Shown here one piece after another: positions 23,344-45,782 of a DNA stretch of 64,000 nucleotides. The stretch's first letter is position 1. Every line of letters begins with the position of its first letter. The notes below the pieces were generated by a model that saw only the letters and a program-made list of their open reading frames with translations, did not search any database and was not told the DNA's origin. Origin of the DNA: Acidobacteriaceae bacterium (GTDB lineage Bacteria > Acidobacteriota > Terriglobia > Terriglobales > Acidobacteriaceae); the NCBI GenBank assembly GCA_003139095.1, contig PLHW01000071.1:1-64000 (forward strand), given 5' to 3'. The position numbers were made by a program, and so were the translations under genes.

Positions 23344-23511
23344 AATTAGGTCCAGACACCTATGCTTCTCCGCCTTACAAACTGCAGAACTGGCCCTTTC
23401 GCAATCTATTTTGTCGACCTGTTGATCTCGGCTTTTCTCTGGCCTCGAGCCTTTGCGCCCAACCCGTAGCCGTTAACTCCTGCTCGTTCACCGCTCACTC
23501 CTGACCTGACG

Positions 23512-25004: not shown

Positions 25005-25104
25005 ATAGCTCCTGCTTCCGTAACCCACAAAACTAAGTCGACGAAACCGTAGCCAACTAAGTGCTCTTCGTTGATAGCTGACGGCTGATATCTGACGGCT
25101 GCAT

Positions 25105-25509
25105 TTACGCCACCGCCAGCACTCGATACAAATAAGCCACGCCCCCAAACCGCTCCACCACAAATCCCTCGATGTGAAACATGTCTCCCTGGTACACGAT
25201 CCCCAGCGCTGTCTCGAACAGCACGTCCGCCGACGCCACGTTTCTCTGGCTCACCTGCGGCGCCATCGCCGAGCGGCCCGCCAGTAGCTCAATCCGCCGC
25301 CTCGGCCCGTTACTCTCGGTCGTCAGCTCCCGGACCACCACCGGCGCGATCGCCGCCTGCTCTACACCCGGATCTACCAGCCCTAGTTCCGCCACCGCAT
25401 CGCCCGGCATCCCCGCCGCCGCAAACAGCATCACCACCTCGGTGCCGCCCAGGCTCCTCAACAGCGAGTCGGTTGCCCGCGCTGCCGCACATCCCGATAT
25501 CCCGGTCAT
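25105..25509 (-). CDS. Putative phage head-tail joining protein
   Basis: MTGISGCAAARATDSLLRSLGGTEVVMLFAAAG...; 1-bp gap to upstream connector gene. Confidence 0.55.
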   Translation of the reverse strand: MTGISGCAAARATDSLLRSLGGTEVVMLFAAAGMPGDAVAELGLVDPGVEQAAIAPVVVRELTTESNGPRRRIELLAGRSAMAPQVSQRNVASADVLFETALGIVYQGDMFHIEGFVVERFGGVAYLYRVLAVA

Positions 25510-25510
25510 G

Positions 25511-26134
25511 TCATCCCACCTTCTGCGCCACATAAGGCGCAAGCAGCTCCCGCACCGTGTCATCTAACAGGGTGTCGGCGAAGTACCAAAGCTGCATGTT
25601 ATTCATCACGCCCTTCTTCACGTTCAGCCCCGGCGTCGCCTGCGCGTTCTTCGCAATCTGCGCGCACGCCACCTTCACCGCATCCGGAAATGTCGCCCAT
25701 CCCGCGGTATACACAATTTCCAATTCATCGAACGCGAACGACAACGCATTGAGCGGCAGCGTCACTTCTCCCGTATCCCCGAAGTAATCTAGGTCCGCCA
25801 CGTTCAAGTCCAGCCACGATCCCGGGATCCCAAACGCCAGCGCGACATTCCACGACAGCTCGTCCTCCGCCCATTCCCCGCGTCTTGGCACCGCATACCG
25901 TGCCCGCGCCGAAACGATTGCCGACGTCGCCGGCGCCACCGCCGTCAGCGGCAGATATGTCAGCCGCACCGGTCTCTGTCCGTCTGTCCGCAAGCGCTCG
26001 GTGTACTGGTTCGCCGCGAGCGTCGCCCTCCGGCAATGCGAATCTACGATTGCCGACGCCCCCGTTATCCACGCAACGTCAGTCGTCGCTTCAAGCCCGT
26101 ACAGTTCATATTCCGATGGCTGCAAGTAATTCAT
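25511..26134 (-). CDS. Phage head-tail connector-like protein
   Basis: MNYLQPSEYELYGLEATTDVAWITGASAIVDSHCRRATLAANQYTERLRTDG...; located just after the capsid gene. Confidence 0.65.
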   Translation of the reverse strand: MNYLQPSEYELYGLEATTDVAWITGASAIVDSHCRRATLAANQYTERLRTDGQRPVRLTYLPLTAVAPATSAIVSARARYAVPRRGEWAEDELSWNVALAFGIPGSWLDLNVADLDYFGDTGEVTLPLNALSFAFDELEIVYTAGWATFPDAVKVACAQIAKNAQATPGLNVKKGVMNNMQLWYFADTLLDDTVRELLAPYVAQKVG

Positions 26135-26353: not shown

Positions 26354-27325
26354 CTACCGTGTTACTTTCACTTCAAAGTGGGCGTACGACGCGCCCTTCA
26401 CCACCGGTGCCCCAAACTTCACCACCACGCTCTGCGTCATCAGCGAGCTCGGCAGCCCCAGCTTGAACACTCGCGGATTCGGATCCGTCAGCCAGTGATA
26501 CTCGATCAGGTCTTCCGTCACGATGTACGCCGGCAATGTCGCGGTCCCGCTTCCTGGCGTTCCCGTGTACGGCAGCGCCCACTCCGGAATCAGCGGTAAG
26601 TCGCCCGCCTGCGTGCTCAGCGTCTTTACGGTCAGTCCGCCGGTGATCTGCGTGGTCGTCATCACCACGTTGAACTCCGCCTTCATCTCCCGGTCGATCA
26701 GGTCCAGCAGCACCGGGTTCGCATAGATCGCGGTCGGCCGCACTTCAAACGAAGAACTCGAAACCATCTCCGCAATCGTGCTCTTGATTCCGTCCACGAT
26801 GCTTGATGTCAGCCCGATGTTCGTCGTGTTCCCGCCGGCCTCAATCTGCCCGATCACGCCGAAATACTGCGGGGTCGTCGGATTGCTCAGCGAAGTGTCG
26901 TTCCCGTTCCACAGCGCCACATCGTGCGTCCGCATCAGGCCTTCCACCGAGTCCGTCAGGTCTTTCGCCTGTAAGTACGCGAACTGGCTTTCTTGGCTCG
27001 TTACCTCAATGTCGAACAGGTTGTAGTTGATCTGCGACACCAGTGCCTTCAGCGGAACGCTCCGCTCCACCCGCGTCGGCGCCTGCAACGTCGGCTGAAT
27101 GTTTCGTGGATCCACGAACGCCTGCGCCGCGCTCGGCGAGGCGATCGCTGTTTCCTCGAAAAACCGCGACGGATGCCCGGTTGCCGGAACCTGCTTGATC
27201 CGCTGCCCAAACACGCCGCGCCGACGCACGATGTCAAAAATTTCCGTTTGATACCGGTTGATTTCAATGGCGCCCGGCCCAAGAAAGTCCGCCGCCGCAT
27301 GCAAATCCAAGAAATTCGCCTTCAT
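26354..27325 (-). CDS. Major capsid protein (HK97-like)
   Basis: 323 aa; capsid-like N-terminus and C-terminal 'PAYIVTEDLIEYHWLTDPNPRVFKLGLPSSLMTQSVVVKFGAPVVKGASYAHFEVKVTR'; follows scaffold-like gene. Confidence 0.75.
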   Translation of the reverse strand: MKANFLDLHAAADFLGPGAIEINRYQTEIFDIVRRRGVFGQRIKQVPATGHPSRFFEETAIASPSAAQAFVDPRNIQPTLQAPTRVERSVPLKALVSQINYNLFDIEVTSQESQFAYLQAKDLTDSVEGLMRTHDVALWNGNDTSLSNPTTPQYFGVIGQIEAGGNTTNIGLTSSIVDGIKSTIAEMVSSSSFEVRPTAIYANPVLLDLIDREMKAEFNVVMTTTQITGGLTVKTLSTQAGDLPLIPEWALPYTGTPGSGTATLPAYIVTEDLIEYHWLTDPNPRVFKLGLPSSLMTQSVVVKFGAPVVKGASYAHFEVKVTR

Positions 27326-27506: not shown

Positions 27507-27965
27507 TTACTCGATCATCCCCGCACGCGCTAACTCCGTTTTTACTGCGACCCGCTGCTCCACGCTCAACGCAGCCAGCGTCCTGTTCAGCACTGCCGGA
27601 TCGATCTTTTCTCCCTCGATTTCATTCTTCGCAATCAACGCGGCCACCACCGGGGACAGTGTCTTCCGCGCCATCCTTGCGGCCTGCGCCTTCAGGTCCG
27701 CATTCGATTTCTCGAGCTCGGCCACTCGCTGACTCAATTCCGAGGCCGCCAGGTCCGCCGCCGCTCTCGACTCACCCGCCGCCTCCAACTTCTGCCGCTC
27801 CGTTTGCGCGATCGACTCCTCCACCGCCGCCACGATTCGGTCCACTTTTGCGTTCAGCATCTCCTGCTGCGCGTCCAACTTGCTCAGCACTCGATCCAGA
27901 CTCTCCGAAGCCGCGGCCAATCGCTCTGCCGCCGCCACCATCTGATTCACCATCTCTTCATTCAT
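27507..27965 (-). CDS. Putative phage scaffold protein (coiled coil)
   Basis: MNEEMVNQMVAAAERLAAASESLDRVLSKLDAQQEMLNAKVDRIVAAVEESIAQTERQKLEAAGES...; between protease and capsid. Confidence 0.6.
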   Translation of the reverse strand: MNEEMVNQMVAAAERLAAASESLDRVLSKLDAQQEMLNAKVDRIVAAVEESIAQTERQKLEAAGESRAAADLAASELSQRVAELEKSNADLKAQAARMARKTLSPVVAALIAKNEIEGEKIDPAVLNRTLAALSVEQRVAVKTELARAGMIE

Positions 27966-28116
27966 CCTCATCCTCCATAAGTTGGACCGCTCATTGCCGG
28001 TCAAAGTCGTCATAACCCCGCCGCTAGTACTCGCCGTATCACTTACGAAACCACATTTTGCCTTTTCCCTTTACCCGCGCCTTTGCCGGCCGGGGATACC
28101 GCGTCCACCCCCGTCG

Positions 28117-28863
28117 TCAAAGTCCTTCCTTGCCCACTGTGACGCCCGGCGCTGCGTCTACCAACTCAATCCATGTCGACATATATGCGGCCTTATCCCT
28201 CCGCAGCACTGCCGCGCCCGTGAATGTAACTCGATTTAAAACCCACACCGCTGCCTGAATATCCTCTACCAGCGCGTCCGCGATCTCATACGACATCCCT
28301 AATCCTGTCCCCGCGGCCCCCTCCTGTGTGGCGCGAAGACCGCGGTCCCCAGCGCGCCCGCTTTTGGCGTGATGGGGTGGAACGCTCGTGTCCGCGCGGC
28401 ATAGCCCGAACCGCGAGCCCTTGCCCGTGGCAATTGCATCCGCGGTCTTATCCGACGCCCGAGCCGCCCCTAGGCGACGGCCAACCGCTCCACTCAATCC
28501 CGTCTTTGGCGGCGTCGCGCTTCTCCCAATCTCCTCCACCATCTCCGGAAAGTCCCGTCCATATAGGTACCCTCCTACCTCGATCTCCCGTCCCACTATC
28601 TCCGCGCTCGTAATCACTCCAATCTTCCGGCGCGTATCGTGTCCATCTAGCCTGGGAGAATAGTCCAACCCCATCCCCAGCAACGACGGAATCGCCTCCT
28701 CTGCCGCCCTTCGCGCAAGTATCACCCGATGCCCCCGCGCTCCTGCGGGCGCCTTATCGGACGGCGAGTCCACCACGGTCAACACTCCCCGGAACGCCAC
28801 ACGATTCGGATGTCCGGCCACCGCCGGCATCCGAATCGCCATCGACTCCAATGAAATCCCCAT
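28117..28863 (-). CDS. Putative prohead protease-like protein with an internal insertion
   Basis: YSPRLDGHDTRRKIGVITSAEIVGREIEVGGYLYGRDFPEMVEEI...LGMSYEIADALVEDIQAAVWVLNRVTFTGAAVLRRDKAAY; position between portal and capsid. Confidence 0.6.
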   Translation of the reverse strand: MGISLESMAIRMPAVAGHPNRVAFRGVLTVVDSPSDKAPAGARGHRVILARRAAEEAIPSLLGMGLDYSPRLDGHDTRRKIGVITSAEIVGREIEVGGYLYGRDFPEMVEEIGRSATPPKTGLSGAVGRRLGAARASDKTADAIATGKGSRFGLCRADTSVPPHHAKSGRAGDRGLRATQEGAAGTGLGMSYEIADALVEDIQAAVWVLNRVTFTGAAVLRRDKAAYMSTWIELVDAAPGVTVGKEGL

Positions 28864-28994
28864 TCCGATATCCCACCTATTCGAACAACTGACTTTCGAA
28901 CTTCTGACCAGAATCCGACACGTTCGACCGCGCCGTCGTCGACCTCTAACAGTCAACGCCTTGGCTTTTACTACTTACTTCTAACTTCCGACTT

Positions 28995-30428
28995 CTAACT
29001 TCCCAAAATCTCCCCCAGCCCTCGTGCCCGTCGAACTTCATTCACCGTCAACACACCAGTGCGTAGTAAGATCTCGTCGATCTGCGCTTGCTCCATCTCA
29101 TCGGTTGCATCCACATCGGTGAATACGAACTCCAGGTCTGGCCATCCGAGCTTTTTCCCAATCGCATCTCGCGTCAGGTGTTCCGCGATCAGCCGTGCCG
29201 TCGGGACTACCGCCGACCGGAACGCCATCTCCGTCATCTCCGCCGCCGTCGCCCGGTTCACATCGCTTGTAACTCCCAGGAATTGTGCCGGTAAGTCAAA
29301 GGCGTCGGCAATAATCCGAATTAGAAACTCCTGCCAGGCCAGCCGGAGGTCTGCGTCGTTCCCCGCCGCGAACCGCAGCACCTCCGGCTTCGTCTCCGCC
29401 GACATAATTGGGACCCGCCCCGTCCCCTCAATCTCGTCCTGCCACCATCGGATCAGTCGCTCATGATTGGCCGGCGTTAGCCCTTGCAGCCACAGCGCAT
29501 ACTGCACCACCGAATTCGAAGCGAGCCGCCCCGCATACCGGTGCGCGCTCAAGAATTCATTGATCGTCTCGAACGCCACCTCCACCCGGCCCAGCCCAAA
29601 CGGCGTGTGCGTCCGCGGGTTCAGCCTGATATAACTCAGCTCATCGTCATTTAGTACGATTTGCCCCTCCGGCCCGTATAGTCCCGTTACCTGCACATAT
29701 CTCGCGGAATCCGGCCGCCCGTCCCAATCCGACATAATCCGAATCGTCGCCCCATCTACCGGCCACATAAGAAGAGGTGACGAAGGGAAAGCGGCCACGG
29801 GTTGGCGATGTGTGGGGCCGGGCGACGCGCCCGTCCAAGCCGACCGCAATTCAGCGGAAGGCAGTTTCCACCCTTCCACTAAATCCAATTCAATCGCCCC
29901 GAACCCGCCGACAATCACGTCCTCAAGCACCTGCTCCACAAACGACCGGAACGAATCGTCCGGATTCGGTGCTTCAAAAGTTTGCGTTAGGATCTGCGCT
30001 CGTAACGCTCCGTTCGGAATGTGGTCGATCGACCGTCCGCTTCGCGCCTGGATCCTCCACCGCATCCCCGCAATGCGGTCCTTAATAACATTGATCGCCC
30101 GCCTCGCAATCGGGGTCTCCGCAAACCTCCGCAAATTCGCTGGCGAAAGTTTCGGCAATGCCGAGTTTCCCGACCCACTCTTCGACCGCCCGCCCGCCCC
30201 AGGTAGCATCGACGAAGGGAATCCCGCAATTGAAAACGGGGCCAGGTTCGACCCCGTTCCCATCGTTCGCCGCCCACTTAGCCCTCGCGCAAGAAGATTA
30301 GTGTTACTTATCAGCGACTGAGTGGAGCTCTTCAACAACTGTGCTGATTGTGCGAGCAAGTTACTCGAGTTGCTAATAAGTGTCGTTGCCCGCCGCCTCT
30401 GTCTCGATATCCATTCCCGCACAGACAC
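28995..30428 (-). CDS. Phage portal protein
   Basis: 477 aa; RRFAETPIARRAINVIKDRIAGMRWRI...AEMTEMAFRSAVVPTARLIAEHLTRDAIGKKLGWPDLEFVFTDVDATDEMEQAQI typical of portal proteins. Confidence 0.85.
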   Translation of the reverse strand: MSVREWISRQRRRATTLISNSSNLLAQSAQLLKSSTQSLISNTNLLARGLSGRRTMGTGSNLAPFSIAGFPSSMLPGAGGRSKSGSGNSALPKLSPANLRRFAETPIARRAINVIKDRIAGMRWRIQARSGRSIDHIPNGALRAQILTQTFEAPNPDDSFRSFVEQVLEDVIVGGFGAIELDLVEGWKLPSAELRSAWTGASPGPTHRQPVAAFPSSPLLMWPVDGATIRIMSDWDGRPDSARYVQVTGLYGPEGQIVLNDDELSYIRLNPRTHTPFGLGRVEVAFETINEFLSAHRYAGRLASNSVVQYALWLQGLTPANHERLIRWWQDEIEGTGRVPIMSAETKPEVLRFAAGNDADLRLAWQEFLIRIIADAFDLPAQFLGVTSDVNRATAAEMTEMAFRSAVVPTARLIAEHLTRDAIGKKLGWPDLEFVFTDVDATDEMEQAQIDEILLRTGVLTVNEVRRARGLGEILGS

Positions 30429-30656: not shown

Positions 30657-31514
30657 CTAACTTCTCGTCTCTCTCCTTACCTCTTCCGCAATCTCCCCCA
30701 TCTCCCCAACATCCCGCACCGAAATCTCAGTCGCCCGCAGCATCGCCACTCCCGAAGCCACCTCGCCCCGTGCTCGCATCGCTTCTTCGCTGATCACCGC
30801 CGTCATCAGCGCCTCTTCACCCCGTCCCCGCATCCCCGATTGAATCCTCGAATACCGATACGCCATCGTTACCGCCGGCTCTCGGCTCAAATTCAGCGCC
30901 AGCGCGTGAAACATCTTCACCGCGCTCCCCACGCGAAATCCAAAGTCCACCACAAACGGATCGTTCTCTCCTGTAAACTCCCGCATATCCAGGTCGCGCT
31001 TCATCATCTCCAGCACGCCCGCCTCTGCGAACGCGTCTTGCATCCGGCCCACAATCCCCATTCGCCCCATCCGCCGTGTCCGCTCTCCTGCCTGCGCCAC
31101 ACCCGGCATCGGAGCCAAATAATCCCGCTCCAGCACTCGCATCTCCGCCATCGGATCGCTCGCCACCATCGCCTTCACCGGCCCCACATCGAACACCGTC
31201 CCAAATCTTTCTCCCAGCAATTGTGTCAACTCTTCCCGCCCGTGGATGTCCTTCAGTCGCTCCCGAATCTCTCTTTCCAGATGTTCAAAGATCGCAACGT
31301 CCAGATCCGGTGCAAAGCACTTCACCCGCTTCCAGTCCCGCGTCATCCGCAATTCTGCGAACCGGGGTCCACGGTCGGCGCGGTTTTCGCCCACTGGGGT
31401 GGAAGACTCGCCCCCCGGCTCCAGCACCAACACGCCCACGGTCATAAAATCGTCCCGCAAAGCGTGTGGCACCAACCGCAACAATAACAATTCAAGCTGC
31501 CGCGTATTCCCCAT
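30657..31514 (-). CDS. DUF3037-type protein (full length)
   Basis: MGNTRQLELLLLRLVPHALRDDFMTVGVLVLEP...; N-terminal ~130 aa closely matches 31608..32399; adjacent to a HipA-like kinase gene. Confidence 0.7.
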   Translation of the reverse strand: MGNTRQLELLLLRLVPHALRDDFMTVGVLVLEPGGESSTPVGENRADRGPRFAELRMTRDWKRVKCFAPDLDVAIFEHLEREIRERLKDIHGREELTQLLGERFGTVFDVGPVKAMVASDPMAEMRVLERDYLAPMPGVAQAGERTRRMGRMGIVGRMQDAFAEAGVLEMMKRDLDMREFTGENDPFVVDFGFRVGSAVKMFHALALNLSREPAVTMAYRYSRIQSGMRGRGEEALMTAVISEEAMRARGEVASGVAMLRATEISVRDVGEMGEIAEEVRRETRS

Positions 31515-31607: not shown

Positions 31608-32399
31608 TCAGTATCTCCGCATCACCCCAATCACCCGTCCCTGGATCTGCACCGATGGCCCCGGCACAACAATCGGCTCCATCTTCGAGTTCGACGGCTG
31701 CAGCCGAACATTATCTCCCTCCCGATAGAACCGCTTCAACGTAGCTTCCGCCGAATCGACCAGCGCCACCACCAGTTCCCCATCCCGCGCCGTCCTCTTT
31801 TTCTCCACCAGTACGTAATCCCCATCCAGAATCGCTTCATCCTGCATCGACTGCCCACGCACTTCCAGCGCATACATCTCTCTCGACGAGTACGCAATGT
31901 CCGCCATCGAAATGGTCTCGTTATTCTGGATCGCCTCGATCGGGCACCCCGCCGCAATCCGACCCACCAGCGGCAACGTAGTCGCCGTGTTCACCACCAT
32001 CCAATCCTTCAACTCCCGTTCCTTCGCAACCGCATTTTTCGGCGCCAGGTACATCGCCGTCAGCACATCCATTTCTCTTGCCGGATCCTCCGTCACCACC
32101 GCTTTCGTCGGCGCCACATCGATGCTCGTCCCGAATTTCTCGCCCACCAGTTGCACCAACTCCTCGCGCCTTTGCAGGCTCCCCAGTCGCGCCCGAATCT
32201 CCTGCTCCACTACCTCAAACCACTCCGTCTCCACGTCCGGCGCCACGCATTGCAGCATCTTCCAGTCGTGTGTCATTCGAACATCGGCGAACCCGCCGTC
32301 ACTCTCCCGCAGCAACAGTCCAACCGTCACGAAATCTTCCCGCAAAACATGCGGCAGAAATCGCAGCAGGTAAAGCTCGAGCTGTCGCCTCTCCGCCAT
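31608..32399 (-). CDS. DUF3037-type N-terminal domain fused to LexA-type (S24) self-cleaving peptidase domain
   Basis: Start MAERRQLELYLLRFLPHVLREDFVTVGLLL; C-terminus LPLVGRIAAGCPIEA (cleavage site), EVRGQSMQDEAI (catalytic Ser), AEATLKRFYREG (catalytic Lys). Confidence 0.9.
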   Translation of the reverse strand: MAERRQLELYLLRFLPHVLREDFVTVGLLLRESDGGFADVRMTHDWKMLQCVAPDVETEWFEVVEQEIRARLGSLQRREELVQLVGEKFGTSIDVAPTKAVVTEDPAREMDVLTAMYLAPKNAVAKERELKDWMVVNTATTLPLVGRIAAGCPIEAIQNNETISMADIAYSSREMYALEVRGQSMQDEAILDGDYVLVEKKRTARDGELVVALVDSAEATLKRFYREGDNVRLQPSNSKMEPIVVPGPSVQIQGRVIGVMRRY

Positions 32400-32516
32400 C
32401 GACTCGTTGCCAGGCCTCAGCCTGCCTCGCCCCTTCGCCTTCCCCTGTGTCCAACTCTGTGGTTCAAAGTTTTTCTCAGTGATCTCCGCGAACTCTCCGG
32501 TTAACAAGGCCCGGCC

Positions 32517-33323
32517 TCACGCCTCCTCCCTCCACTCCGGAAACGGTCTCCGCGGCGACGTCCGAAACGCCTGAATCAACTCCCGCACTATCGCCCGCCT
32601 CTCGATCAGCCTCTGCACCAGCGCTTCCAACTCATCCCAACTTGCCCCATACCACGCCGGTGGTATCTCTCCCGCCACCCGCCAGATCGCGTCCTCCTCC
32701 AATTTCTCAATCCGCGTCAGCCACGGTTCAAACGACCCCCACCCGCTCACCTTCCCATATACCTCATTCCTCGGATATACCCCTCTCAGCGGAAAATCCG
32801 GAAACGTCCACTCCCCCGCATTAAAGCAATATCCCTGATCGATAAACGCCGCCGAATATTTCCTCTCCCGCAGCTTCCGCCAAAACGCCGCCTGCCGCCC
32901 ATCCGCGTTACAGGTCCACTTATCCAGCGCCAAGATCCCCGCAAACGTCTCCAGATTCCGCACCCGGTCCAGCATCTCCGGCGGCAGGTAATCGAACACC
33001 TGCCCCTCCACTGGACTCACCACAAACCGCGATCCAAACTGCAATCCCGCCTCCACCTGGATCGCGTTGCTCCCCAGCACGATCGTCAATTCCGGCGTAT
33101 GCTCCACCAGCCAAATCGAAACATCCACTACCTCCGCCACCGGCACCGGCAGTCCCACCTGCTCCGCCAGTCGCGTCGCCAAAAACTCGTTCGCCAGCAC
33201 CCGCTCATGCTGCGGATTATTCCGAAACTTCACCACATAATAATGACCATCCTCGCAGCGCATCAGATGGCTCTGCGCTCCGCCCCTCATCCTCTTCACG
33301 TGCTGTATCGCAGACGTTGACAT
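32517..33323 (-). CDS. HipA-like kinase
   Basis: GGAQSHLMRCEDGHYYVVKFRNNPQHERVLANEFLATRLAEQVGLPVPVAEVV; LALDKWTCNADGRQAAFWRK and AAFIDQGYCFN as HipA-type catalytic/metal motifs. Confidence 0.85.
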   Translation of the reverse strand: MSTSAIQHVKRMRGGAQSHLMRCEDGHYYVVKFRNNPQHERVLANEFLATRLAEQVGLPVPVAEVVDVSIWLVEHTPELTIVLGSNAIQVEAGLQFGSRFVVSPVEGQVFDYLPPEMLDRVRNLETFAGILALDKWTCNADGRQAAFWRKLRERKYSAAFIDQGYCFNAGEWTFPDFPLRGVYPRNEVYGKVSGWGSFEPWLTRIEKLEEDAIWRVAGEIPPAWYGASWDELEALVQRLIERRAIVRELIQAFRTSPRRPFPEWREEA

Positions 33324-33596: not shown

Positions 33597-35471
33597 TCAC
33601 TTTCCGGCCGCTCCATCTTCCCACCATTCCTTCCGCCGCCCTTCCTTCCTCGCCGCGAGTGCAATTCCCATCGCCATCACGCAATCGTCATGTGCCCCCG
33701 GAGCCGCTGCCGGCGCCCCGTTCACCTGCCTTACAAATGTCCGGCACTCGTTCCATAGCTTCCAGCTCTGGAATAGCGGCGCCGCCTCCACCAACATCTC
33801 CGCCAGGTTCTCAAGCATCGGCGGACGGCTCTTTGCCGTCGTGTACCACCCCTCCGCTCCGTCTTCCCACGTATACACCGGCTTGTACTTCAGCGTGTCC
33901 ACTAAGTGCACCAGCAACGCGTGCCCATGATTGTTTCTTTCCACCACCGCTACCGCGTCGTTATATTCCTTCCCCAACTTCGCCACCCGGTTCCCCAGCT
34001 CTCTTGGCGTAAAGTGTCCATGTAACTCCGCGCACTGCTGCCCTGACTCCCAGTCGATCACTTCCGCGCACGCGTAATCTCCATTTACTCCCCCGCCCGC
34101 CGGGTCCACTCCCATCGCATAACGCCGTCCCGGTTGCGCCGGCAGCCAGATCGACAAATGCCCGTTTTCCCGCGTCTCGCATGGCGCGCTCGCCCCCGCC
34201 AGCGCCTTCTCAATCACCTCGATCTCGAATGCGCACTCCCCCGACGACCGGAAGCACTGCACCGCATCTTCCGCAAATTCCTGCCCCGCCATTCCCCGCA
34301 ACGCCGACCACTGCTGCCGCCGCCACGCGATCTGCTCGTCCGTCAGCCCGTTCGCCAGCGCCAACTCTATTTCTTCAGGAGTCTTCTCAAACCCGTTCCC
34401 CGGCTCGCTCCTGTAACTCTCCTCAAACCACCATGGAAAAAAGTGCTTCGTGTATCCCGTCTCCTCCGCTTGCTGCCACTCCTCGTAAAACGGTCCCCAA
34501 GCCCCGTTCGCGGTCGATTCCAGCACAATCTCTCCCCCCGGAACCACCGCCGCCCGCAGCGATCCGAGCGCGTCCGCTCCCTCCCGTCCCCACCGCGAAA
34601 CCTCCGTGCAGTGCAGGTTCTGTATCGTCCGTCCCCGCCCCGCATTCTCGTCCGCCGACGCCACCGTGAACTCGCTATCCAGATGCGGAAACACCAGTTC
34701 CCGCGCACTCGAATGCGAAGTCTTCAGCGGACCCTCTTGCAACTCCGACGGCAGGTTATCCCAGAAGCGATGCACGATTCGGAAGATCTCCTCCGCCGCC
34801 AACTGGTCGTGCGCCACCAGCATCGTCAGCGTCCCCTTCCGCGTGATCGTCTGCACAAAAAAACGCGCCGCCAGGTACGACGTCATCCCAATCTGCCGCG
34901 CCTTCAGCACTATGTTTTTCTTCGCGCCCGTCTCCAGGCACACCCGCGAATATTCCCGCTGCACCGCGTTCATCTCGATCGGCGCCGGCTGCCCCACTTT
35001 CGTCCGGATCTTAAGATGCTGCTCAATCCAGTAATCCCGCTCCGTCCGCTCCCAGAATTTGCCGCCTCCGATTTCTCTCCTGCAACCCTGTGCAATCTCA
35101 TCCAGCCGCCCGCCAATCCTAACCAGTTCGTCGATCTGCTTTTCTATGACGCCCCTCGGATTCTTTTTCTCGCCCTGTCCTTCTCCGGCTGCGCTACGAT
35201 TCTGCTCCTCTTGCGCGATTCGGCCTCCACCTTCACTCCGGCTTTCCTCCTCAGGAGTCGCCGGATCATTCCGGCTTTCTCTTCTAGTCGCAGTTTGCTC
35301 GCTTCGATGTTCCGTCCTGGTCGCCGCCGTCTTATTCTCGTTACCTTTTTTCCCCGTCGCCCCCGATTTCGATCCCGCGTTCAACTCCGTGATTACTTCC
35401 CCAGCCTGTCCCGTGGACCCATCCCCAACCCGCCCTAATCCCCCATCTTCAAATGGCATTTCCCGGCCCAA
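33597..35471 (-). CDS. Phage terminase large subunit
   Basis: IVLKARQIGMTSYLAARFFVQT (ATPase), VLESTANGAWGPFYEEW, AMGVDPAGGGVNGDYACAEVIDW (nuclease). Confidence 0.88.
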   Translation of the reverse strand: MGREMPFEDGGLGRVGDGSTGQAGEVITELNAGSKSGATGKKGNENKTAATRTEHRSEQTATRRESRNDPATPEEESRSEGGGRIAQEEQNRSAAGEGQGEKKNPRGVIEKQIDELVRIGGRLDEIAQGCRREIGGGKFWERTERDYWIEQHLKIRTKVGQPAPIEMNAVQREYSRVCLETGAKKNIVLKARQIGMTSYLAARFFVQTITRKGTLTMLVAHDQLAAEEIFRIVHRFWDNLPSELQEGPLKTSHSSARELVFPHLDSEFTVASADENAGRGRTIQNLHCTEVSRWGREGADALGSLRAAVVPGGEIVLESTANGAWGPFYEEWQQAEETGYTKHFFPWWFEESYRSEPGNGFEKTPEEIELALANGLTDEQIAWRRQQWSALRGMAGQEFAEDAVQCFRSSGECAFEIEVIEKALAGASAPCETRENGHLSIWLPAQPGRRYAMGVDPAGGGVNGDYACAEVIDWESGQQCAELHGHFTPRELGNRVAKLGKEYNDAVAVVERNNHGHALLVHLVDTLKYKPVYTWEDGAEGWYTTAKSRPPMLENLAEMLVEAAPLFQSWKLWNECRTFVRQVNGAPAAAPGAHDDCVMAMGIALAARKEGRRKEWWEDGAAGK

Positions 35472-35662: not shown

Positions 35663-38098
35663 TCAGTGCACGGCGCTAAAACTCTCGGGCACGTACGCGT
35701 ATGCCCCCATCTCCCAACTGCTCCCGAACGAATTCTGATTAATTCCCATCAGGTCGTACTGATACTCCGCTGGCAAAATCGCTCCTTTGTCCCGCACCGG
35801 AGAATTCGCCGTTGGCCGAAAATCCGCCTCCAACCCAGTCGACGGGCACACATAATACGAACCCGCCACATACCCGCTCGGCACCGCATCGTTCGCCGTG
35901 CATCCCAGTAAGAACTCCACCATCTGCGTGTTTGACTCCAGCGTCGCTCCGCCCTGCACCACTGCATCCATAAAATTCGCCACTTCGTCCGGCCGCAACT
36001 CGTTCACATGCCAGAAGTATCCAATCGGCCGTCCCCATAGCGCGTTCTTGAATAAGTCCTGACTTACCCGGTTCCGCATTTGCTGGTAAGTCAATCCCTG
36101 GTAATTCGGCACTATCCCCTGGCTCAGAATATTCAGCACGTCATATCCCGTCGCCAGCGTCGTATTCGCCCCGCAGCACGGCTTCAGGCTCCCCGTTCCC
36201 CGCACCCCCACATATCCCAATCCCGCCGCAATGTTCTCTGTTACGGGATCTTCATAACTTCCCGGCATCACATACACCCGCGCCGCCGGCAGCCCCGTCA
36301 AATTCAAATTCATCCACGCCTGCGACCAGCTCATCTCCTCTGTCTCCATCTCCGCCTCATTGAAGTCGAGGTTCTGCGCCGCGCTCAGAATGTCTAGGTT
36401 CGCTACATCCGCCAGCGAGATGCTTCGCGCCATGCTTTTCGCGTTCGTATCCATCGTCACCGCATACACCCCGCGCTGCTCCAGCGTGTACAGCATCCCT
36501 CCCAGCGTGTCGAGTCCCGTTTCATGCTGCCCCGGCGGCGCCGGCGTCAGATCCCAGAAGATATCCGCCGCCGGGTCATCCGGACTGGTCGTGACCATCA
36601 TGCACGCCAGCTTTCCCGCCCCGCACACGCTCTGCGAGTGCGAAATCGTCAGGGTCACGCTCGCCGCCAGCAACCCCGTATACTGCAAATTCTCGAACGC
36701 ATGGCAAGGCACCGGAAACGGCCCTCCCAGCCCGCAACTCGCGGCGGGCGGATCGGCATACTCGTGTGAGATCGAATGTGTATTCACATCCCATCCCGCA
36801 TTGATCCATCCCTGCACCTCGCCAATCATTCCCTGCGAGTAACTCCCGCCCGTCACCACTGCGATCGAAAGCGGTACTCCCTTCGCCGCGACCATTGGCA
36901 ACAACGCACTAACATAAGTGTCGCTGTTCAACACCAGTCCCGGGTCGTCATAACTCACCGTCGTATACGCCGGCCATCGCCGCCACTCTCGCACCCACGG
37001 CGCTGTCTCCGCCGGTATATTGTTGCTTCCCGCCGTCGGTCCCGGTGTCCCCGCCGTGTCCACCGTCAGTGCCGTCGCCAGGTTGTTCGCGTATAAGTGG
37101 CAGTAATCGTAATTTACCGCCCCCTGCACGTTGTCCATGATTCCGTAAGCCCGGTTTCCGTAAGCCCGGCAATTCTTGATCTCGAACGCGCACCCTCCGC
37201 TCCCGCATCCGTCAAACCGGTAGCCCGCATAATTCATGTTGGCGTCCGTGTTATACAGATGAATGTCGGTCGGCGTCCCGCTCGGATGGATATAGAACCC
37301 TAGCGGTACAGCCCCATTCTCCACCTCGCTGTCTGACGCAATGTTCGCCAGCCACAAATGATCGCTCGTCCCCAGCGCCGGCGACTGCACCTGCACTCCG
37401 TATGCGTCGAACCAGTCAATCTGTAAATGCTGAATCTCCAGCCACGACTGCCCATTGATATTCAGCAGGCTCTGTCCGCTCAGCACGATCGGCGCAACCG
37501 TCCCATAGTTATCCGCCGGATTTCCTCCTGCGCTGTACACATACAGAATGTAGTTCGTCGCGTCGTACCACCAATCCCGATCCTGCCCCAGCCCCGCCTG
37601 GCTCCCCTGCGCAACGCCCCATACCGTCCCGAACCGCACATAATTCAATTGCGTCGGCGGCTGCGTCAGACAATAAAATCCGCGCCCCCCGCACTGCACC
37701 ACGCTGCTAAGTCCCGTCGTAGTCGAATACAACGTCGCATACCACACGCCCGTCGTTCCCACCTGCGTCCAGAACTGCGGCCCGATCGGCAGATAACCCG
37801 TCAAATGCGGCGGCCGACCGTTCCCGTAACTGTCGATCTTGATCAGCGCCCCGCCCGTCGCCGGATTCGTTCCGCTCGAGGGCGGCGTCAGCGTCTCGTT
37901 CCACGTGCAATCCCGCTTCAGGTTGACCGTGTCCCCCGGCAGAAAGGTCGAGATCCCAACCTCCAGCATCGTTCGCCACGCCGCCTGCGCGCTCGTCCCC
38001 GGATTCCCGTTCGACCCATTGTTGCAATCCACGTAGTAATCCAAGGCACACGCCACCCGCGCCCCTATTAGGAGTAAGAACAACACCTTCTTCATCAT
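35663..38098 (-). CDS. Secreted right-handed beta-helix protein with inserted NodB-like polysaccharide deacetylase region
   Basis: Signal peptide MMKKVLFLLLIGARVACA; beta-helix start DYYVDCNNGSNGNPGTSAQAAWRTM and end SPVRDKGAILPAEYQYDLMG...WEMGAY; middle VSYDDPG and HSISH motifs. Confidence 0.75.
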   Translation of the reverse strand: MMKKVLFLLLIGARVACALDYYVDCNNGSNGNPGTSAQAAWRTMLEVGISTFLPGDTVNLKRDCTWNETLTPPSSGTNPATGGALIKIDSYGNGRPPHLTGYLPIGPQFWTQVGTTGVWYATLYSTTTGLSSVVQCGGRGFYCLTQPPTQLNYVRFGTVWGVAQGSQAGLGQDRDWWYDATNYILYVYSAGGNPADNYGTVAPIVLSGQSLLNINGQSWLEIQHLQIDWFDAYGVQVQSPALGTSDHLWLANIASDSEVENGAVPLGFYIHPSGTPTDIHLYNTDANMNYAGYRFDGCGSGGCAFEIKNCRAYGNRAYGIMDNVQGAVNYDYCHLYANNLATALTVDTAGTPGPTAGSNNIPAETAPWVREWRRWPAYTTVSYDDPGLVLNSDTYVSALLPMVAAKGVPLSIAVVTGGSYSQGMIGEVQGWINAGWDVNTHSISHEYADPPAASCGLGGPFPVPCHAFENLQYTGLLAASVTLTISHSQSVCGAGKLACMMVTTSPDDPAADIFWDLTPAPPGQHETGLDTLGGMLYTLEQRGVYAVTMDTNAKSMARSISLADVANLDILSAAQNLDFNEAEMETEEMSWSQAWMNLNLTGLPAARVYVMPGSYEDPVTENIAAGLGYVGVRGTGSLKPCCGANTTLATGYDVLNILSQGIVPNYQGLTYQQMRNRVSQDLFKNALWGRPIGYFWHVNELRPDEVANFMDAVVQGGATLESNTQMVEFLLGCTANDAVPSGYVAGSYYVCPSTGLEADFRPTANSPVRDKGAILPAEYQYDLMGINQNSFGSSWEMGAYAYVPESFSAVH

Positions 38099-38131: not shown

Positions 38132-41100
38132 TCATTCCACCACGATCGCCGGTACCGTAGCTGCGAAGCTCTCTAACCCCGTCCCCGTCGTGATGCTCCC
38201 CGGCGCCGTGCCTCCCGCGCCCACCGAGAATGACGTATTCGAGTAAGAAGTAACAAATGCCGCATTCTCCGCATTCACCGTCGCGCAACTTGCCGTACAG
38301 CTCGAAGTCCACAGGATGAAATATTTCCCCGGCGCTAACGCCGTCGCGCCCTCGCTCCATGCCTGCGACATCACCGTGTTCGCCGTCGGCGCGAACGCGG
38401 TCCCCGCCGCCCCGTAATGCACCACCAGGGCCCCGCTGGCGTTATAGATCGCCACCGCATAAGTGTTCGCCGAGTTGTCCGCCGTTCCCACCCGATAAAC
38501 GATCTTCGTCGCTGTCACTGAGTAAGGCAGCGTAAGCGCAAACACCGCCGCCTTACTCGCGCTTGCCGGAAACGTGAACGACCCGCTGCTGCTGTAAGTT
38601 ACCGGAACCCACGTTGCGCCCAGCGCCCGGTCCACATACGCCGTAGTCGCCAGCTTAGTCGAGTTATCTCCCGCACCCTGAGTCGAAGCCGTAGTCCCAT
38701 TCGGCAGCGCCGGCGTCCCGCCCAAATTCGCCGCCGTACCGCTCGTATTCGCCGCATTATTCGGAATGTCCCCACTAACCAGCGCCGGCAACTGTGCGTG
38801 TGGTAACGTCCCCGTTGTAATATCGCTGGCACTTACAGTCACATTCCCCGATAGTGCGTGCCCATTCACGCTCGTGCCCGTGGGTACATAACCAGGCACC
38901 GCTGGACTTCCCGTAAATGTCGGAGAGTTCAGCGGTGCTGCCCCCGTAACTTGCGCCACTGTGTAATCCCCACTCTGCGCAGTTACAGTTCCCGTCCGTC
39001 CAAACACGCTCGCGACCGCGCCACCTCCGCCCGTCGGCATGCACGACGCTCCGCTCGCCAGTTGGCAATGGAAAGTCGCATCCGCTCCCACTCCCATCGA
39101 GAAGTCCATGCCCGATGGCACCGTTACTGTCGTGCCCGTCCATTCCTTTCCGGACCACTGCGTCGGACTGCTGCTCGTCTGATTGATAGTCCCGGCCACG
39201 TTCAAGTTGCCATTGATCATCACATTATTCAAAAAGGTCGGGTTGCCGGCCCACCCCGCCCCACTAATCGACGTCCCATCCGGATGAGTAAGTACCCCCG
39301 TAAAGGTCGGCGACAGCAATGGCGCAGCCCCACTTACCTGGCTAACTGAGTAATCCCCGCTCTGTGCCGCGACCGTCCCAGTCCTTCCAAAGACTGAGGA
39401 AACGGCCCCGCCACCGCCGCCCGAGCCATAGCCCTGGGCATTCACCCACGCCGTCGTAGCAATCTTCGTCGAGCTGTCGGAAGTTGCGGGTGTTGGCGCG
39501 GTCGGCGTGCCCGTGAATGCCGGCGATGCCAATGGGGCAGCTCCCGTAACCTGGTTCACTGAATAGTCTCCGCTCTGTGCTGTTACAGCTCCAATGCGCC
39601 CAAACACCGAACTAACAACCGCACTCCCGCTCGGCGCCCCTAGACTTACCCGCACTCCGCCGCTCGCCTCAATCCGCCCAATCACCTGCACTCCACTTGG
39701 CCGGTTTGCCGATCCCGTATCATGGCATTTCCCGGCCTGGCTTGTGCTCGCTACCGCATAATCCCCTGCTACCGGGTTCCCTGCATCAAAGTTACATGCC
39801 GCTACTCCCGCCCAAGTAATAACTGACTTTCCACTTGTTCCGGCCCCACTACTTACAATTCCAACCACCCCATCCGTGCTTCCCGTCGACGCCGTCTGAA
39901 CTCCCGCCCCGCTTCCGTTATAGACTGCCAGATCGTTTGCCACAGTGCCGTTGACCCCGTCATTCGCGAACTCAAAGTCCTGTCGCCCGTTCGTGTACAT
40001 GTTGAACGAGGTCGTCGCAAATACACTGTGAACTGCCTGCCCTGTGTCCGTTCCTATGTCGTAAGTGCTCCCGACATACGGCTTGAATGTCCCATCGTTC
40101 CCAAACAGCCACTTAAGACTCGACCCAATATGGATTCCAATGCTCGGCGCATTGCCGCTCGCCGCATCCTCACTGCGTAGTACGTTGTAGTTAGTTCCAC
40201 TTACGGACTCGGACCCAAGCGACGTGCGGTCCCAAGTCGAGCTATTCGTATATGAGGAGTACACACGGAAGTTCTGTGCGTTTAGCCCGTTTCGTTCTTC
40301 CAGCGTATCTCCCGGGTCCCCATTTGGGTCCGAGTTAAACAGGTTGGCGAGCCCCAACTGCATCGGCTGTCCATTATTGTCGATAACCCGCGGCGTGTGC
40401 GTCGCCGCGTCGAACCAGAACACCCCCCAATTTGGAATGCCCGCCGGTTGCGCCGTCTCCGCTAGTTGGATGACATTAGGCGTCGTACAATTGGCATTTC
40501 CATTTGCCGCGATGCCCGTCGCGAATGCGCCGCTGCACTGTGTCGGAGTGTGCGCCAACGCCAGCGCCGTACCAGCCTGCCCGCTGATATTAGAGCTTGT
40601 AAGTGCAACCTGCTGCACCGTCCCGCCAATATTAACCACCGGCAGGCCCGCCGCCGTATCCAACCCAAGCCCCCCGGCCGCCGGCGCATAACCGCTGCCT
40701 GCGGGTAGGATCAGGTTTCCGCTCGCCACAATAGTATTGGTAAATGTCTTATTCCCACTTATGGACTCGATGCCCGTGTTATGTACAACTGCCGCGTCTG
40801 CCGCCGCCCCTGTTACTTGAGACACGATATAGTCGCCAGCGGTCGCGATGACGGCCCCACTTCTCCCAAACACCGAACTGACTGCCCCGCCGCCGCCACC
40901 CGATCCACACGGGCTGCCCGTCGAGCTAATGACGCCCGACGCAATGTTCAGGCAACCGTCCGCCAGTCCGGAAATCGTCACGCTCTCATCCATCTTGATC
41001 GGAACGTTAAATTCCTTAAGTCCCGCACTCAGCCTTTCCAGCCAATTTGCATGTACCCCATCGCCCGTCGCCGCAATGTAATTCGTGATAGATACCGGCG

Positions 41101-44100
41101 CTCCGAACGCGAGTTGCCCCTGATTCAGGCCCACCCCGCCACTCGCCACGTCGGTCCCGATCCAGGTATCTGTCGCGCTCGCCGCTGGCCGGTATCCCCA
41201 CGTCGACCGCGTCAGGGCTGGTTGCGAGTCCACTAAGGTAATAATGTGGTGCGGTTGCAGGTTTGCGCTTGGACTCGTCGAGAAGTTCAGCCGTCCCTTT
41301 GACAGGGCTTCGCCGCCACCCGACGCGGCCCCATCTGTCATCAGTGTGGCTGTCTGGTTCGGCACCGCGTTGTTACTTGCCGTCAGGCTCACTTGGCAGT
41401 CCGTGAATCCGCCTGTGGAGGTCGCCCCCCAGGACGTACACTCACTGGCAACCTGGAGCGGGTTACCATCTAACCCAATGCCCACAACGTTGCTCTCTTC
41501 GTTGCCCACCGCTACGCTCTTATTCACACTTACAATCGACCCTGGCCAGAAGGCCACGCTGCCGGCGTAGTTACCCTGCTGGATCGAATAACTCACCGTC
41601 ACCGCCGATCCCGAGTCGGTATAAGTGCATACCAGGCCGGAGCACTGGGCGACATTGATCGCAATTGATCCGCACGCGAGCGTCGACCCACCCGCACACC
41701 CCCCTGCGTAAGGATACGTGGCGTTAACTCCGTTCGGCGTCGCGATTCGGATAAGGTCGTAAGTAATCGCGTCGGTCCCATTTGCCACGCGCGGCCAACG
41801 TACAGGAATGGAGTCGCTGCCGGTCGAGTTATAGTTGAGGATCTGCATCGGTGACGTCTGTGTGCCTGTCGTAAGATCCTTTGCAACCACAAAGTAAGAA
41901 TATGCTGTCGCTCCTCCCCCTCCGGTCGAAAACGCCCCTTGTGTACCGCCACTGCCGGCAATTGCGAAACTCGCCGCCCCGCTCGACGGCCCCGCGATCA
42001 GGCCCGCGACTCCCGTCCCCGGAAATGGCGAGTGAGCTGGGGATAGCGGATTCATCTGCGGCCCGCTCTCCGAATAAATGTTCTTTAGGTATGCTCCCTG
42101 ATAGTTACCCGTCGAGTTCGATGAATACACCTGCCATGGTCCGGTTGCCTGCAAGACCGTATTCTCAACGTAGAGGCCATTTGAGTTATAGACAGTCACT
42201 CCGTTTGCGTAGTTGGCCGTGATACTCGAATCCCGCAGCGTAATCACCGGTGCGATCTGGTGGCCGGCCCCCTGATTGCCCGCGGAGAACACAAAGGACC
42301 CCGACCAGTTTGCGCTCGTGTTCAATGGAATCGCGTTATTGTTGAACTGGTCGATGCTTGCATTCTCGTCATCCCATAGGTCGAAGAAGTTGTTGAATGC
42401 CCCGTTTTCCCCCACCTTATCGTAAGAAATATCCGCAAGATGCGTATTCACCGCGTTATCAAGCACCGCGACATAAGTGAGTGCCACCACGCCCGGCGTC
42501 GTCTGAGCGGCGATATCGGTGCCGGAATGCGCATATTGAAACGTCGTCGGGTTCGGTACGGCGGTGACGATCGCATCGCCCCAGAACGCGTTGTTATCTG
42601 TGAACATGATTGTTGCCATGTCCCCCGGTCGCAATCCGTGGGCCGTCGCCGTCGTTATCGTCACGACCTGAGATAGTCTTTGCGTCTGCGTAATCGCCAC
42701 GCCCGCAAACGCCGGATTGCTCGAGAGGTTCGTTGGCGTGCGGAAACTGATTCCTTCGACCGTGCTACTCGTGTAATCGTTGGAATTTACCAGGTCGCCG
42801 ATCTGCAGGCACGGCCCGCGCTCGTTGCAGTTCAATGACGTCCCGTAGCCGCTGAAGATGGATTGGTTCGAATGCAGATAGATTGTGCCCGCAACATTAT
42901 AGGTATTCAGCGAATGGTTTGGATATCCGGGCCCATTCGATGGCAGCGTTACATTGCATTGCGCGTTCTTCCAGGACGTCGTATCGGTTCCGCACGCGGC
43001 GTTTAGAGTTTCCTGAATCCCCGACGAAGCCGAGCCGATGCTGTATCCTGCTGCATACGAATAGAATGGGGTGAACACGACTGTCCCCGACGGCGCGCCC
43101 GCAAGGCATCCCCCCGCAGTCGCGATCACGTTGACCGCCTCGCTGTTTCCCCCACCCGAGATAAGAGCTTGATACCCGGCTCCACTGGTTGTGTCAATTC
43201 CCATGGGGCAGGGAGTAAGTGTAACCGTCGCTTGTGTCCCTCCCGTTAGCGGACTCGCAATCGTTTGCGACCAGTTCGCCGCGGTCGTCGCATAAGTGAT
43301 TCCGGCCGGGGCCCCACCGGTGCCGCACGCACCCCATGTGGAGTTTCCGGTCAGGCAGGTGCTCGCATTGGCGTTCCCCGTCCCTAACTCGCTTGTAGGG
43401 ATAAGTCCGGCTACTAAGTCGGCTTTAGCCGACATCCCGTTGTCAACATACTGACGGTCAGTGGCTTGATTCGGTGCAGTCGGGGGTCCTGGAAGCGTCA
43501 GCGGCCCGGTCATCGTATCGCCGGAGAGCAAGACATAATTCCCTGACCCCACGTTTGCGACGGCCTGGTCCACATACTCTTTGTTCGCGGCGTCCGCGCT
43601 TTCTGCGGGCGAGGGCAGCAAGGGCGGCACCGTGAATTGTTTCGCGCCCGTGATTGTCTCCGCCCCCGAGAGGTGTACTACCGACGAGTCAAGTGCCCGG
43701 TTCGCCACGGCCGCATTCACATATTGTTGAGTGGCCGCCAGATTTCCCAGTCCAGTGCCCGGCGTTGTGCGCACCGCGGAAATCGTCGTCGGTGAGTTCG
43801 TTGGCACCGACCAATATTCCGTGCGCACTGTTCCGTCGTCGAGTTGAAATACGACGACATATAGTGTCCCCGCCGGACTGGCGCCTGCATTTGGCACTAA
43901 TTGCGCATTAAATGCGCCGCCTTCGCCAATCGTCACACTCTGGCTTCCCGCCGCCACCGCGTATCCGTCGGCTGTCTGGAACGATGGCCATGAAATCAGC
44001 GCCAGACCCGACGCGGGCGTCCCGTCACCACCGTACACCGTGTCGCTGATCGTGGTCAGCCCCGGCCCTTGCGCATGCGCTCCCGTCGACAATGTTGCAG

Positions 44101-44185
44101 TCGTCATGAGCACAGATAGGGTGAGAATCAACATACTCACCGTCGTCGCAACTTGCTCTCGCCTCGCCGTGAAATGTCTGCCCAT
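38132..44185 (-). CDS. Giant tail-fibre/adhesin-like protein with signal peptide
   Basis: Start MGRHFTARREQVATTVSMLILTLSVLMTTATLSTGAHA; repeated 'AVSSVFGRTGTVTAQSGDYSVSQVTGAAPL.SPTFTG' modules; beta-helix-like middle. Confidence 0.8.
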   Translation of the reverse strand: MGRHFTARREQVATTVSMLILTLSVLMTTATLSTGAHAQGPGLTTISDTVYGGDGTPASGLALISWPSFQTADGYAVAAGSQSVTIGEGGAFNAQLVPNAGASPAGTLYVVVFQLDDGTVRTEYWSVPTNSPTTISAVRTTPGTGLGNLAATQQYVNAAVANRALDSSVVHLSGAETITGAKQFTVPPLLPSPAESADAANKEYVDQAVANVGSGNYVLLSGDTMTGPLTLPGPPTAPNQATDRQYVDNGMSAKADLVAGLIPTSELGTGNANASTCLTGNSTWGACGTGGAPAGITYATTAANWSQTIASPLTGGTQATVTLTPCPMGIDTTSGAGYQALISGGGNSEAVNVIATAGGCLAGAPSGTVVFTPFYSYAAGYSIGSASSGIQETLNAACGTDTTSWKNAQCNVTLPSNGPGYPNHSLNTYNVAGTIYLHSNQSIFSGYGTSLNCNERGPCLQIGDLVNSNDYTSSTVEGISFRTPTNLSSNPAFAGVAITQTQRLSQVVTITTATAHGLRPGDMATIMFTDNNAFWGDAIVTAVPNPTTFQYAHSGTDIAAQTTPGVVALTYVAVLDNAVNTHLADISYDKVGENGAFNNFFDLWDDENASIDQFNNNAIPLNTSANWSGSFVFSAGNQGAGHQIAPVITLRDSSITANYANGVTVYNSNGLYVENTVLQATGPWQVYSSNSTGNYQGAYLKNIYSESGPQMNPLSPAHSPFPGTGVAGLIAGPSSGAASFAIAGSGGTQGAFSTGGGGATAYSYFVVAKDLTTGTQTSPMQILNYNSTGSDSIPVRWPRVANGTDAITYDLIRIATPNGVNATYPYAGGCAGGSTLACGSIAINVAQCSGLVCTYTDSGSAVTVSYSIQQGNYAGSVAFWPGSIVSVNKSVAVGNEESNVVGIGLDGNPLQVASECTSWGATSTGGFTDCQVSLTASNNAVPNQTATLMTDGAASGGGEALSKGRLNFSTSPSANLQPHHIITLVDSQPALTRSTWGYRPAASATDTWIGTDVASGGVGLNQGQLAFGAPVSITNYIAATGDGVHANWLERLSAGLKEFNVPIKMDESVTISGLADGCLNIASGVISSTGSPCGSGGGGGAVSSVFGRSGAVIATAGDYIVSQVTGAAADAAVVHNTGIESISGNKTFTNTIVASGNLILPAGSGYAPAAGGLGLDTAAGLPVVNIGGTVQQVALTSSNISGQAGTALALAHTPTQCSGAFATGIAANGNANCTTPNVIQLAETAQPAGIPNWGVFWFDAATHTPRVIDNNGQPMQLGLANLFNSDPNGDPGDTLEERNGLNAQNFRVYSSYTNSSTWDRTSLGSESVSGTNYNVLRSEDAASGNAPSIGIHIGSSLKWLFGNDGTFKPYVGSTYDIGTDTGQAVHSVFATTSFNMYTNGRQDFEFANDGVNGTVANDLAVYNGSGAGVQTASTGSTDGVVGIVSSGAGTSGKSVITWAGVAACNFDAGNPVAGDYAVASTSQAGKCHDTGSANRPSGVQVIGRIEASGGVRVSLGAPSGSAVVSSVFGRIGAVTAQSGDYSVNQVTGAAPLASPAFTGTPTAPTPATSDSSTKIATTAWVNAQGYGSGGGGGAVSSVFGRTGTVAAQSGDYSVSQVSGAAPLLSPTFTGVLTHPDGTSISGAGWAGNPTFLNNVMINGNLNVAGTINQTSSSPTQWSGKEWTGTTVTVPSGMDFSMGVGADATFHCQLASGASCMPTGGGGAVASVFGRTGTVTAQSGDYTVAQVTGAAPLNSPTFTGSPAVPGYVPTGTSVNGHALSGNVTVSASDITTGTLPHAQLPALVSGDIPNNAANTSGTAANLGGTPALPNGTTASTQGAGDNSTKLATTAYVDRALGATWVPVTYSSSGSFTFPASASKAAVFALTLPYSVTATKIVYRVGTADNSANTYAVAIYNASGALVVHYGAAGTAFAPTANTVMSQAWSEGATALAPGKYFILWTSSCTASCATVNAENAAFVTSYSNTSFSVGAGGTAPGSITTGTGLESFAATVPAIVVE

Positions 44186-44232
44186 CTCGGCTTTTCTCCT
44201 CGTCACCTTACACGGCCCTCCTTCGGGCCAAT

Positions 44233-44256
44233 AAGAAAGCCGCTCTTGTGAGCGGC
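44233..44256 (-). terminator. Rho-independent terminator
   Basis: Minus strand GCCGCTCACAAGAGCGGCTTTCTT. Confidence 0.6.
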
Positions 44257-44390
44257 CACTTTCCTCTGCATTCTTGCTCCTACCATGACAACGTTCAAGC
44301 GATTCCCCTGCCGCCAATCACCCGATCAATCCTCACCAGCGCGATCTTGGGACTCCTTCTAGATGACCCGCCCTCGCCAGCGCCCTCGCC

Positions 44391-45290: not shown

Positions 45291-45782
45291 CTAACAGGCT
45301 GAAATATTGGCGGTTAGATCCTCTGCCCGCGGAAACCTGTCCAGCAAACCGCGCGCGATCAGAACCCGTGACAACTGGTCAATCGCCTCGTGCAGAAGCC
45401 TTTGCACGGTCCTTTCGCAACAGGCCAGCGATCTCGATATCTCGAAAACTGTGTACTCCTCGAAGATGTGCATTGCAATCAGCTTCTTCTCTAGCGCACC
45501 CATTTTGTCTAAGGTATGTTCAATATCCGTTACAAATACGATCGTGTCTTCAAAGTTCTTAGTCGAGTATCTACTGACGCGGGCGCGAAAAAACTCACGT
45601 CCCAGCAGGCAGGGCAAGTGTCCAACCTCGACCGAAACCCGCGCATAACGCTTCAACAATGCCGTTGTCTTTGGACGATAAGCCCACAGGTCGATTTCAG
45701 TTTCGTCGAAAAACAGGGGCGGCCCTCCCGCCTGACACATAACGGTCCAACCCAGGGTTCCGTGCGGCAGTGTGCCTGTCAT
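45291..45782 (-). CDS. Sigma-70 region 4-like transcription factor
   Basis: MGALEKKLIAMHIFEEYTVFEISRSLACCERTVQRLLHEAIDQLSRVL helix-turn-helix. Confidence 0.7.
   Translation of the reverse strand: MTGTLPHGTLGWTVMCQAGGPPLFFDETEIDLWAYRPKTTALLKRYARVSVEVGHLPCLLGREFFRARVSRYSTKNFEDTIVFVTDIEHTLDKMGALEKKLIAMHIFEEYTVFEISRSLACCERTVQRLLHEAIDQLSRVLIARGLLDRFPRAEDLTANISAC

Follow-up and report, generated by a model that had tools for sequence, protein, structure and literature searches.

A contig from a soil bacterium of the Acidobacteriaceae carries a set of genes of phage-particle type and, next to the terminase gene, a gene whose product combines a beta-helix with a polysaccharide-deacetylase domain. 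This arrangement raises the question of what such a protein does and why it is encoded in such company. The window, meaning the whole 64,000-nucleotide stretch analysed, comprises positions 1 to 64,000 of the forward strand of contig PLHW01000071.1 (Acidobacteriaceae bacterium, assembly GCA_003139095.1), and the gene is a single unbroken frame of 811 amino acids on the reverse strand (Table 1). The answer favoured here, which is given about an even chance of being right, is a Sec-exported, two-part glycan enzyme belonging to a domesticated, gene transfer agent (GTA)-like locus of the Acidobacteriaceae, where it would tune particle release or uptake. This proposal builds on the protein's architecture, the conservation of its motifs, purifying selection, the signal peptide, a fixed place in the cassette and loss together with it. 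The surrounding locus is a more interesting result than the enzyme itself.

Table 1. Features of the locus and of the 811-residue protein, in window coordinates
Feature	Position	Strand	Basis
Host dihydrolipoyl acyltransferase (E2), locus flank	17623..18975	+	locus comparison
Small single-TM ORF, XhlA/holin-like	20695..20994	-	by eye
Neck/tail-like genes (20995-23343, 23512-24837, 24486-25163, 25105-25563)	20995..25563	-	conserved order; functions inferred from position
Head-tail adaptor	25511..26134	-	phrog_442, E 9e-12
Major capsid protein, HK97-fold	26354..27325	-	structure match
Conserved coiled cassette protein, scaffold-like position	27507..28013	-	locus comparison
Conserved cassette protein	28117..28956	-	locus comparison
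Portal protein	28995..30428	-	profiles
DUF3037 protein	30657..31514	-	profile
DUF3037 + S24 peptidase (UmuD/repressor-like)	31608..32507	-	profiles
HipA-like kinase (HipA_2)	32517..33323	-	profile, locus comparison
Terminase large subunit (TerL); ATPase and nuclease motifs kept	33597..35471	-	profiles, motif alignment
Secreted beta-helix/NodB-deacetylase protein, 811 aa	35663..38098	-	ORF, Pfam profiles, alignment of relatives
Choice-of-anchor-Q-like C-terminal cap, residues 746-803	35690..35863	-	sub-cut-off profile match in relatives
NodB/CE4-type deacetylase domain, residues 372-740	35879..36985	-	Polysacc_deac_1, CE4 fold matches
CE4 motif 5, F-W-H697 (FWHVNE)	36008..36016	-	His invariant in all rows covering site
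Motif 3 position, YVMPG, residues 609-613, non-canonical (no Arg)	36260..36274	-	alignment
CE4 motif 2, H441-S-x-S-H445	36764..36778	-	invariant (alignment)
CE4 motif 1, D384-D385 (YDDPG)	36944..36949	-	invariant in all rows covering site
N-terminal cap and right-handed beta-helix, residues 19-371	36986..38044	-	Pfam Beta_helix, N-cap matches, model strands 201-337
Sec signal peptide MMKKVLFLLLIGARVACA, residues 1-18	38045..38098	-	sequence and ortholog conservation, A-x-A ahead of mature start; heuristic
Exported fibre-like protein, VFGRTG/BppL_N repeats; start probably internal, just ahead of signal peptide	38132..44317	-	ORF, profiles, locus comparison
Small sigma-70 region-4-like regulator, kept at locus	45291..45782	-	locus comparison

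Architecture of the protein

Searched on its own against Pfam, the window protein matches Beta_helix (E=0.0016, residues 212–346) and Polysacc_deac_1 (E=0.024, residues 387–448), both below the curated cut-off. As these single-sequence scores are weak, relatives were collected to settle the domain calls: from four viral contigs, from ten loci of bacterial genomes, and from 61 related genomes, 24 of which gave matches. Beta_helix is matched in 22 and Polysacc_deac_1 in 20 of the 23 aligned relatives. Several scores exceed the curated cut-offs (23.9, 28.3 and 40.1 bits against 23.1 for the deacetylase; up to 38.4 against 25.9 for the beta-helix), and the relatives that pass both span Acidobacteriaceae genera. 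The beta-helix and deacetylase matches are not due to chance.

The AlphaFold model has an overall pLDDT of 69 and a pTM of 0.66; the deacetylase region lies mostly between 75 and 94, with weaker loops, and its motif residues sit at the C-terminal ends of strands, as expected of a CE4 enzyme. A sequence search of the PDB with the NodB profile returned spurious matches only (eIF3F), and fold comparison was needed instead. Foldseek aligns the model with beta-helix enzymes (XylC, 7e-6, and GH136 lacto-N-biosidases) and with CE4 deacetylases (BA3943, probability 1.00, TMt 0.54; chitin deacetylase 8he1, TMt 0.65). The beta-helix is recognised by profiles above cut-off in relatives, by the model and by fold. 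In a viral library the matches are phage tail fibres, tailspikes, right-handed beta-helix proteins and phage deacetylases. The N-terminal cap resembles 7v6m and the N-terminus of LnbX, and eight relatives give a choice_anch_Q-like match directly behind the deacetylase, which stays under the curated cut-off (best E 0.002).

The residues D384, D385, H441, H445 and H697 are invariant wherever the alignment covers them, across identities of roughly 35–79%. The domain thus displays the DD of motif 1, the H(S/T)xxH of motif 2 and the hydrophobic-x-His of motif 5, but at motif 3, where CE4 enzymes have an Arg (RxxPY-like), the pattern is YVxPG; for this reason it is called NodB/CE4-like and not canonical CE4. 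An earlier note on this DNA had placed a deacetylase at roughly 35906–36990, in agreement with the boundaries in Table 1; its DD and HSISH prove invariant, and H697 is now added to them. The same note had a NodB-like region inserted into a right-handed beta-helix protein, with beta-helix signatures at both ends. The profiles of the relatives, the model and the Foldseek matches bear out a NodB-type domain between the beta-helix and a C-terminal cap in one chain, and the findings speak against a continuous beta-helix devoid of a NodB barrel. Since searches found no uninterrupted beta-helix relative, insertion as an event is deduced from the two flanking parts.

The nesting goes one step further, as the deacetylase domain harbours an extra beta segment after motif 2. 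Within one genus an alternative allele of the segment after motif 2 occurs (L003, L009 and L010), and in L009 the NodB half exceeds the helix in dN. One relative (L069) shows, by eye, an FN3-like stretch ahead of motif 3, and long C-terminal extensions are found in another genus (G029, G168 and others); in some genera they amount to several hundred residues. For pairs from the same genus, whole-protein dN/dS spans about 0.07–0.25, with most values under 0.17. In pairs with the window, helix and deacetylase each give about 0.07–0.19, and the NodB half by itself about 0.08–0.18. These values are rough because synonymous sites are near saturation. Purifying selection acts on both halves. No paper on a polysaccharide deacetylase inserted in a parallel beta-helix was found in the open-access literature.

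Export of the protein is read from its heuristically predicted Sec signal peptide. Where the true start of an ortholog is included, the same heuristic nearly always recognises such a peptide as well. The 811 residues show no recognisable domain for virion attachment.

A phage-derived cassette apparently inherited with its host

The gene lies 33 bp downstream of the fibre-like gene and 191 bp upstream of terL, and this order is kept in its own and in other genera, sometimes with an extra secreted ORF in between. No integrase, replication or tape-measure genes were recognised in the locus. The capsid model is of low confidence (47.7), yet phage capsids make up nearly all of its best fold matches; the capsid profile found no match among PDB sequences, and the assignment rests on these fold matches together with the position in the cassette. 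Other members of the locus display features of their own. The HipA-like kinase, perhaps a regulator or a toxin-like protein, occurs in the majority of the genera examined and shows 84–90% identity across most of the genus. The fusion of an S24 peptidase, UmuD/LexA-like, to DUF3037 raises the possibility that cassette expression responds to DNA damage. The fibre-like protein has a conserved N-terminal domain (DTVYRADGSPASGTLLISWPxF...) and is otherwise highly variable in nearly every genus examined.

Of 300 family genomes, 172 carry the capsid gene, almost always as a single copy, and they represent 52 of 79 genera; in the rows examined it is 69–89% identical to that of the window. Among 247 genomes sampled across the phylum it was seen in no family other than the Acidobacteriaceae, nor does the cassette capsid match any of 50,697 phage records. 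The nearest capsids outside the cassette, 63–64% identical, lie on large phage-like contigs of 74–214 kb (L142–L145), with no similar terL or portal in the stretch examined; one of them, L143, also carries, by eye, RNA-ligase-like, ThyX-like and CCA-transferase-like ORFs.

The 15 genera examined largely agree in cassette order, and E2 adjoins the cassette in nine of them, complete single-contig genomes included. A permuted order, with capsid and tail-like genes before the fibre-like gene and terL, is seen in G303 (L092, L093). Distances of seven cassette proteins correlate with those of RpoB (Mantel r 0.65–0.85, 0 of 2000 permutations), dN/dS of the cassette genes is about 0.08–0.33, and the TerL ATPase and nuclease motifs are kept in 20 orthologs, one of them partial at the last motif. 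Apparent internal stop codons in portal genes turned out to be the natural gene end in G033, the sole genome checked. In G020 the gene at 20995 has an in-frame stop at codon 84, reflecting either assembly error or decay, which invalidates its dN/dS value there.

Under the definition of GTAs in PMC9662315, three sequence-level features were scored. Particle proteins of Caudoviricete origin are recognisable (TerL, portal and adaptor by profile, the capsid by fold), the cluster is endogenised (chromosomal, with the E2 adjacency described above), and the RpoB correlation and single copy number indicate vertical inheritance and co-diversification, on distances rather than trees. The locus has the appearance of a domesticated phage cluster that is passed on vertically and resembles a gene transfer agent. 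The label 'GTA-like candidate' is used because these features are found whereas the remaining criteria (packaging of random host DNA, inability to package the agent's own genome, DNA delivery) are experimental. The cassette at 20695–35471 is apparently unreported in the open literature searched: no GTA report for Acidobacteria was found in open-access papers, and acidobacterial prophages have been described with no vertically inherited locus mentioned in the pertinent part of that account (PMC5900883).

Association of the deacetylase gene with the cassette and its possible roles

The deacetylase gene occurs in 30 of the 300 family genomes and 12 of the 79 genera, so the cassette is independent of it. 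Of the 22 genomes with full-length copies, 21 also carry the capsid gene and one, G094, retains a terL fragment only. The eight genomes with broken copies have neither a terL nor a capsid match. The broken copies of G294 and G281 are joined to the tail-like gene at 20995 at different points, and that of G009 reads, by eye, into a tail like that of the small TM ORF at 20695–20994; the differing fusion points imply separate deletions. Broken copies in G015, G132 and possibly G013 (L030, L049, L071, L079) share a foreign end (about CLNASIWAK), which suggests recurrent deletion into one gene. To some extent the association of gene and cassette is a trivial one, as both go in a single deletion, and their joint loss could stem from such single events instead of a common function. 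Distances of the deacetylase protein follow RpoB more loosely than those of the cassette (r 0.46; nine genomes, some truncated).

The earlier note had seen a surface-glycan enzyme, possibly a tailspike. The nested deacetylase holds, and its gene is linked to phage genes; the tailspike reading finds no support. As the tailspike of an ordinary temperate prophage, the protein would bind host capsule through its beta-helix and trim it with the deacetylase during infection. The gene indeed lies beside terminase, portal and capsid genes, tail fibres and tailspikes are among the viral fold matches, and phage-borne deacetylases exist (PMC12494034). This role is nevertheless quite improbable: the cassette is present in single copy, in a syntenic place and congruent with the host across the family, as a vertically inherited cluster and not an ordinary prophage; integrase and replication genes were not recognised, nor was a means of virion attachment; and the deacetylase part has no relative in the 50,697 phage records. 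Virion tail parts are assembled in the cytoplasm and need no Sec signal peptide. As the protein and its fibre-like neighbour both carry one, as do the orthologs, a tailspike is unsupported, and direct attachment to a particle built in the cytoplasm is unlikely.

The signal peptide would also suit a secreted host carbohydrate enzyme, devoted to capsule or EPS remodelling or to polysaccharide use, that does no more than neighbour the cassette. The GH136-like N-terminal region of the beta-helix protein and the C-terminal extensions, which run to several hundred residues in certain genera, are in keeping with such an enzyme. Against it, the gene stays next to the cassette from genus to genus, and hardly any intact copy is found in a genome that lacks the cassette; this role is considered unlikely. 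A domain that is catalytically dead and retains glycan binding only would account for the non-canonical motif 3 (YVxPG against RxP), and CE4 pseudoenzymes are known, BA3943 being among the Foldseek matches; the invariance of DD, HSxSH and the motif-5 His over the identity range covered speaks against it, and it is considered highly improbable. For the beta-helix, the role may be glycan binding only, not the lyase action that the note had considered.

In the favoured reading of an exported glycan enzyme, the beta-helix would grip a polysaccharide and the NodB/CE4-type domain nested before the C-terminal cap would deacetylate it in a metal-dependent manner, with D385, H441 and H445 presumably holding a divalent metal and D384 and H697 acting in catalysis. 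The putative substrate is an acetylated capsule, EPS or wall glycan outside the cytoplasm. Its deacetylation could tune the release of particles from producers, or attachment to and passage through the glycan of sister cells, by an enzyme that would be exported rather than particle-borne. RcGTA serves as an analogy: capsular polysaccharide is its receptor, bound by the head spikes as well as the tail fibres, and a capsule-less strain is not recipient-capable for want of it (PMC10218006). A broader and more tentative proposal, possible but leaning towards the doubtful, is an ancient, independently arisen GTA of the Acidobacteriaceae whose locus encodes a Sec-exported fibre and a Sec-exported glycan deacetylase, both of which would ready the surface of producing or receiving cells so that particles can leave or enter.

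If particles are made, a dominant soil phylum would possess a GTA lineage of its own, and a testable, host-controlled route would open for DNA exchange in soil. In that event the substrate of the deacetylase would reveal the glycan met by the particles, and deleting its gene could tell an influence on release apart from one on uptake. The nested NodB/beta-helix chain is a little-described design that would couple glycan binding and deacetylation in one secreted protein.

Comparison with known systems

With CE4/NodB enzymes (PF01522) the protein shares the fold match and the residues of motifs 1, 2 and 5; it differs in the missing motif-3 Arg, the additional beta insertion after motif 2 and the beta-helix host protein, and some relatives deviate further by the FN3-like domain before motif 3. 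GH136 LnbX, XylC and choice-of-anchor-Q proteins resemble it in having an N-terminal cap followed by a helix and a C-terminal cap-like motif, but in the window protein a NodB domain lies between helix and cap. Like other virion deacetylases, the turret head protein of HFTV1 unites a phage-linked glycan-binding part with a deacetylase-like domain, which is proposed to weaken the host glycan (PMC12494034); that protein forms a turret on the capsid of the virion, whereas the window protein is predicted to be Sec-exported and carries a beta-helix. As to the cassette, it belongs to another phylum than RcGTA, BaGTA and the Brachyspira GTA, encodes exported fibre and enzyme proteins and has no recognised tape-measure gene. 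In common with these agents, and likewise with no integrase recognised, it is a Caudoviricete-derived head-tail cluster that appears endogenised and vertically inherited.
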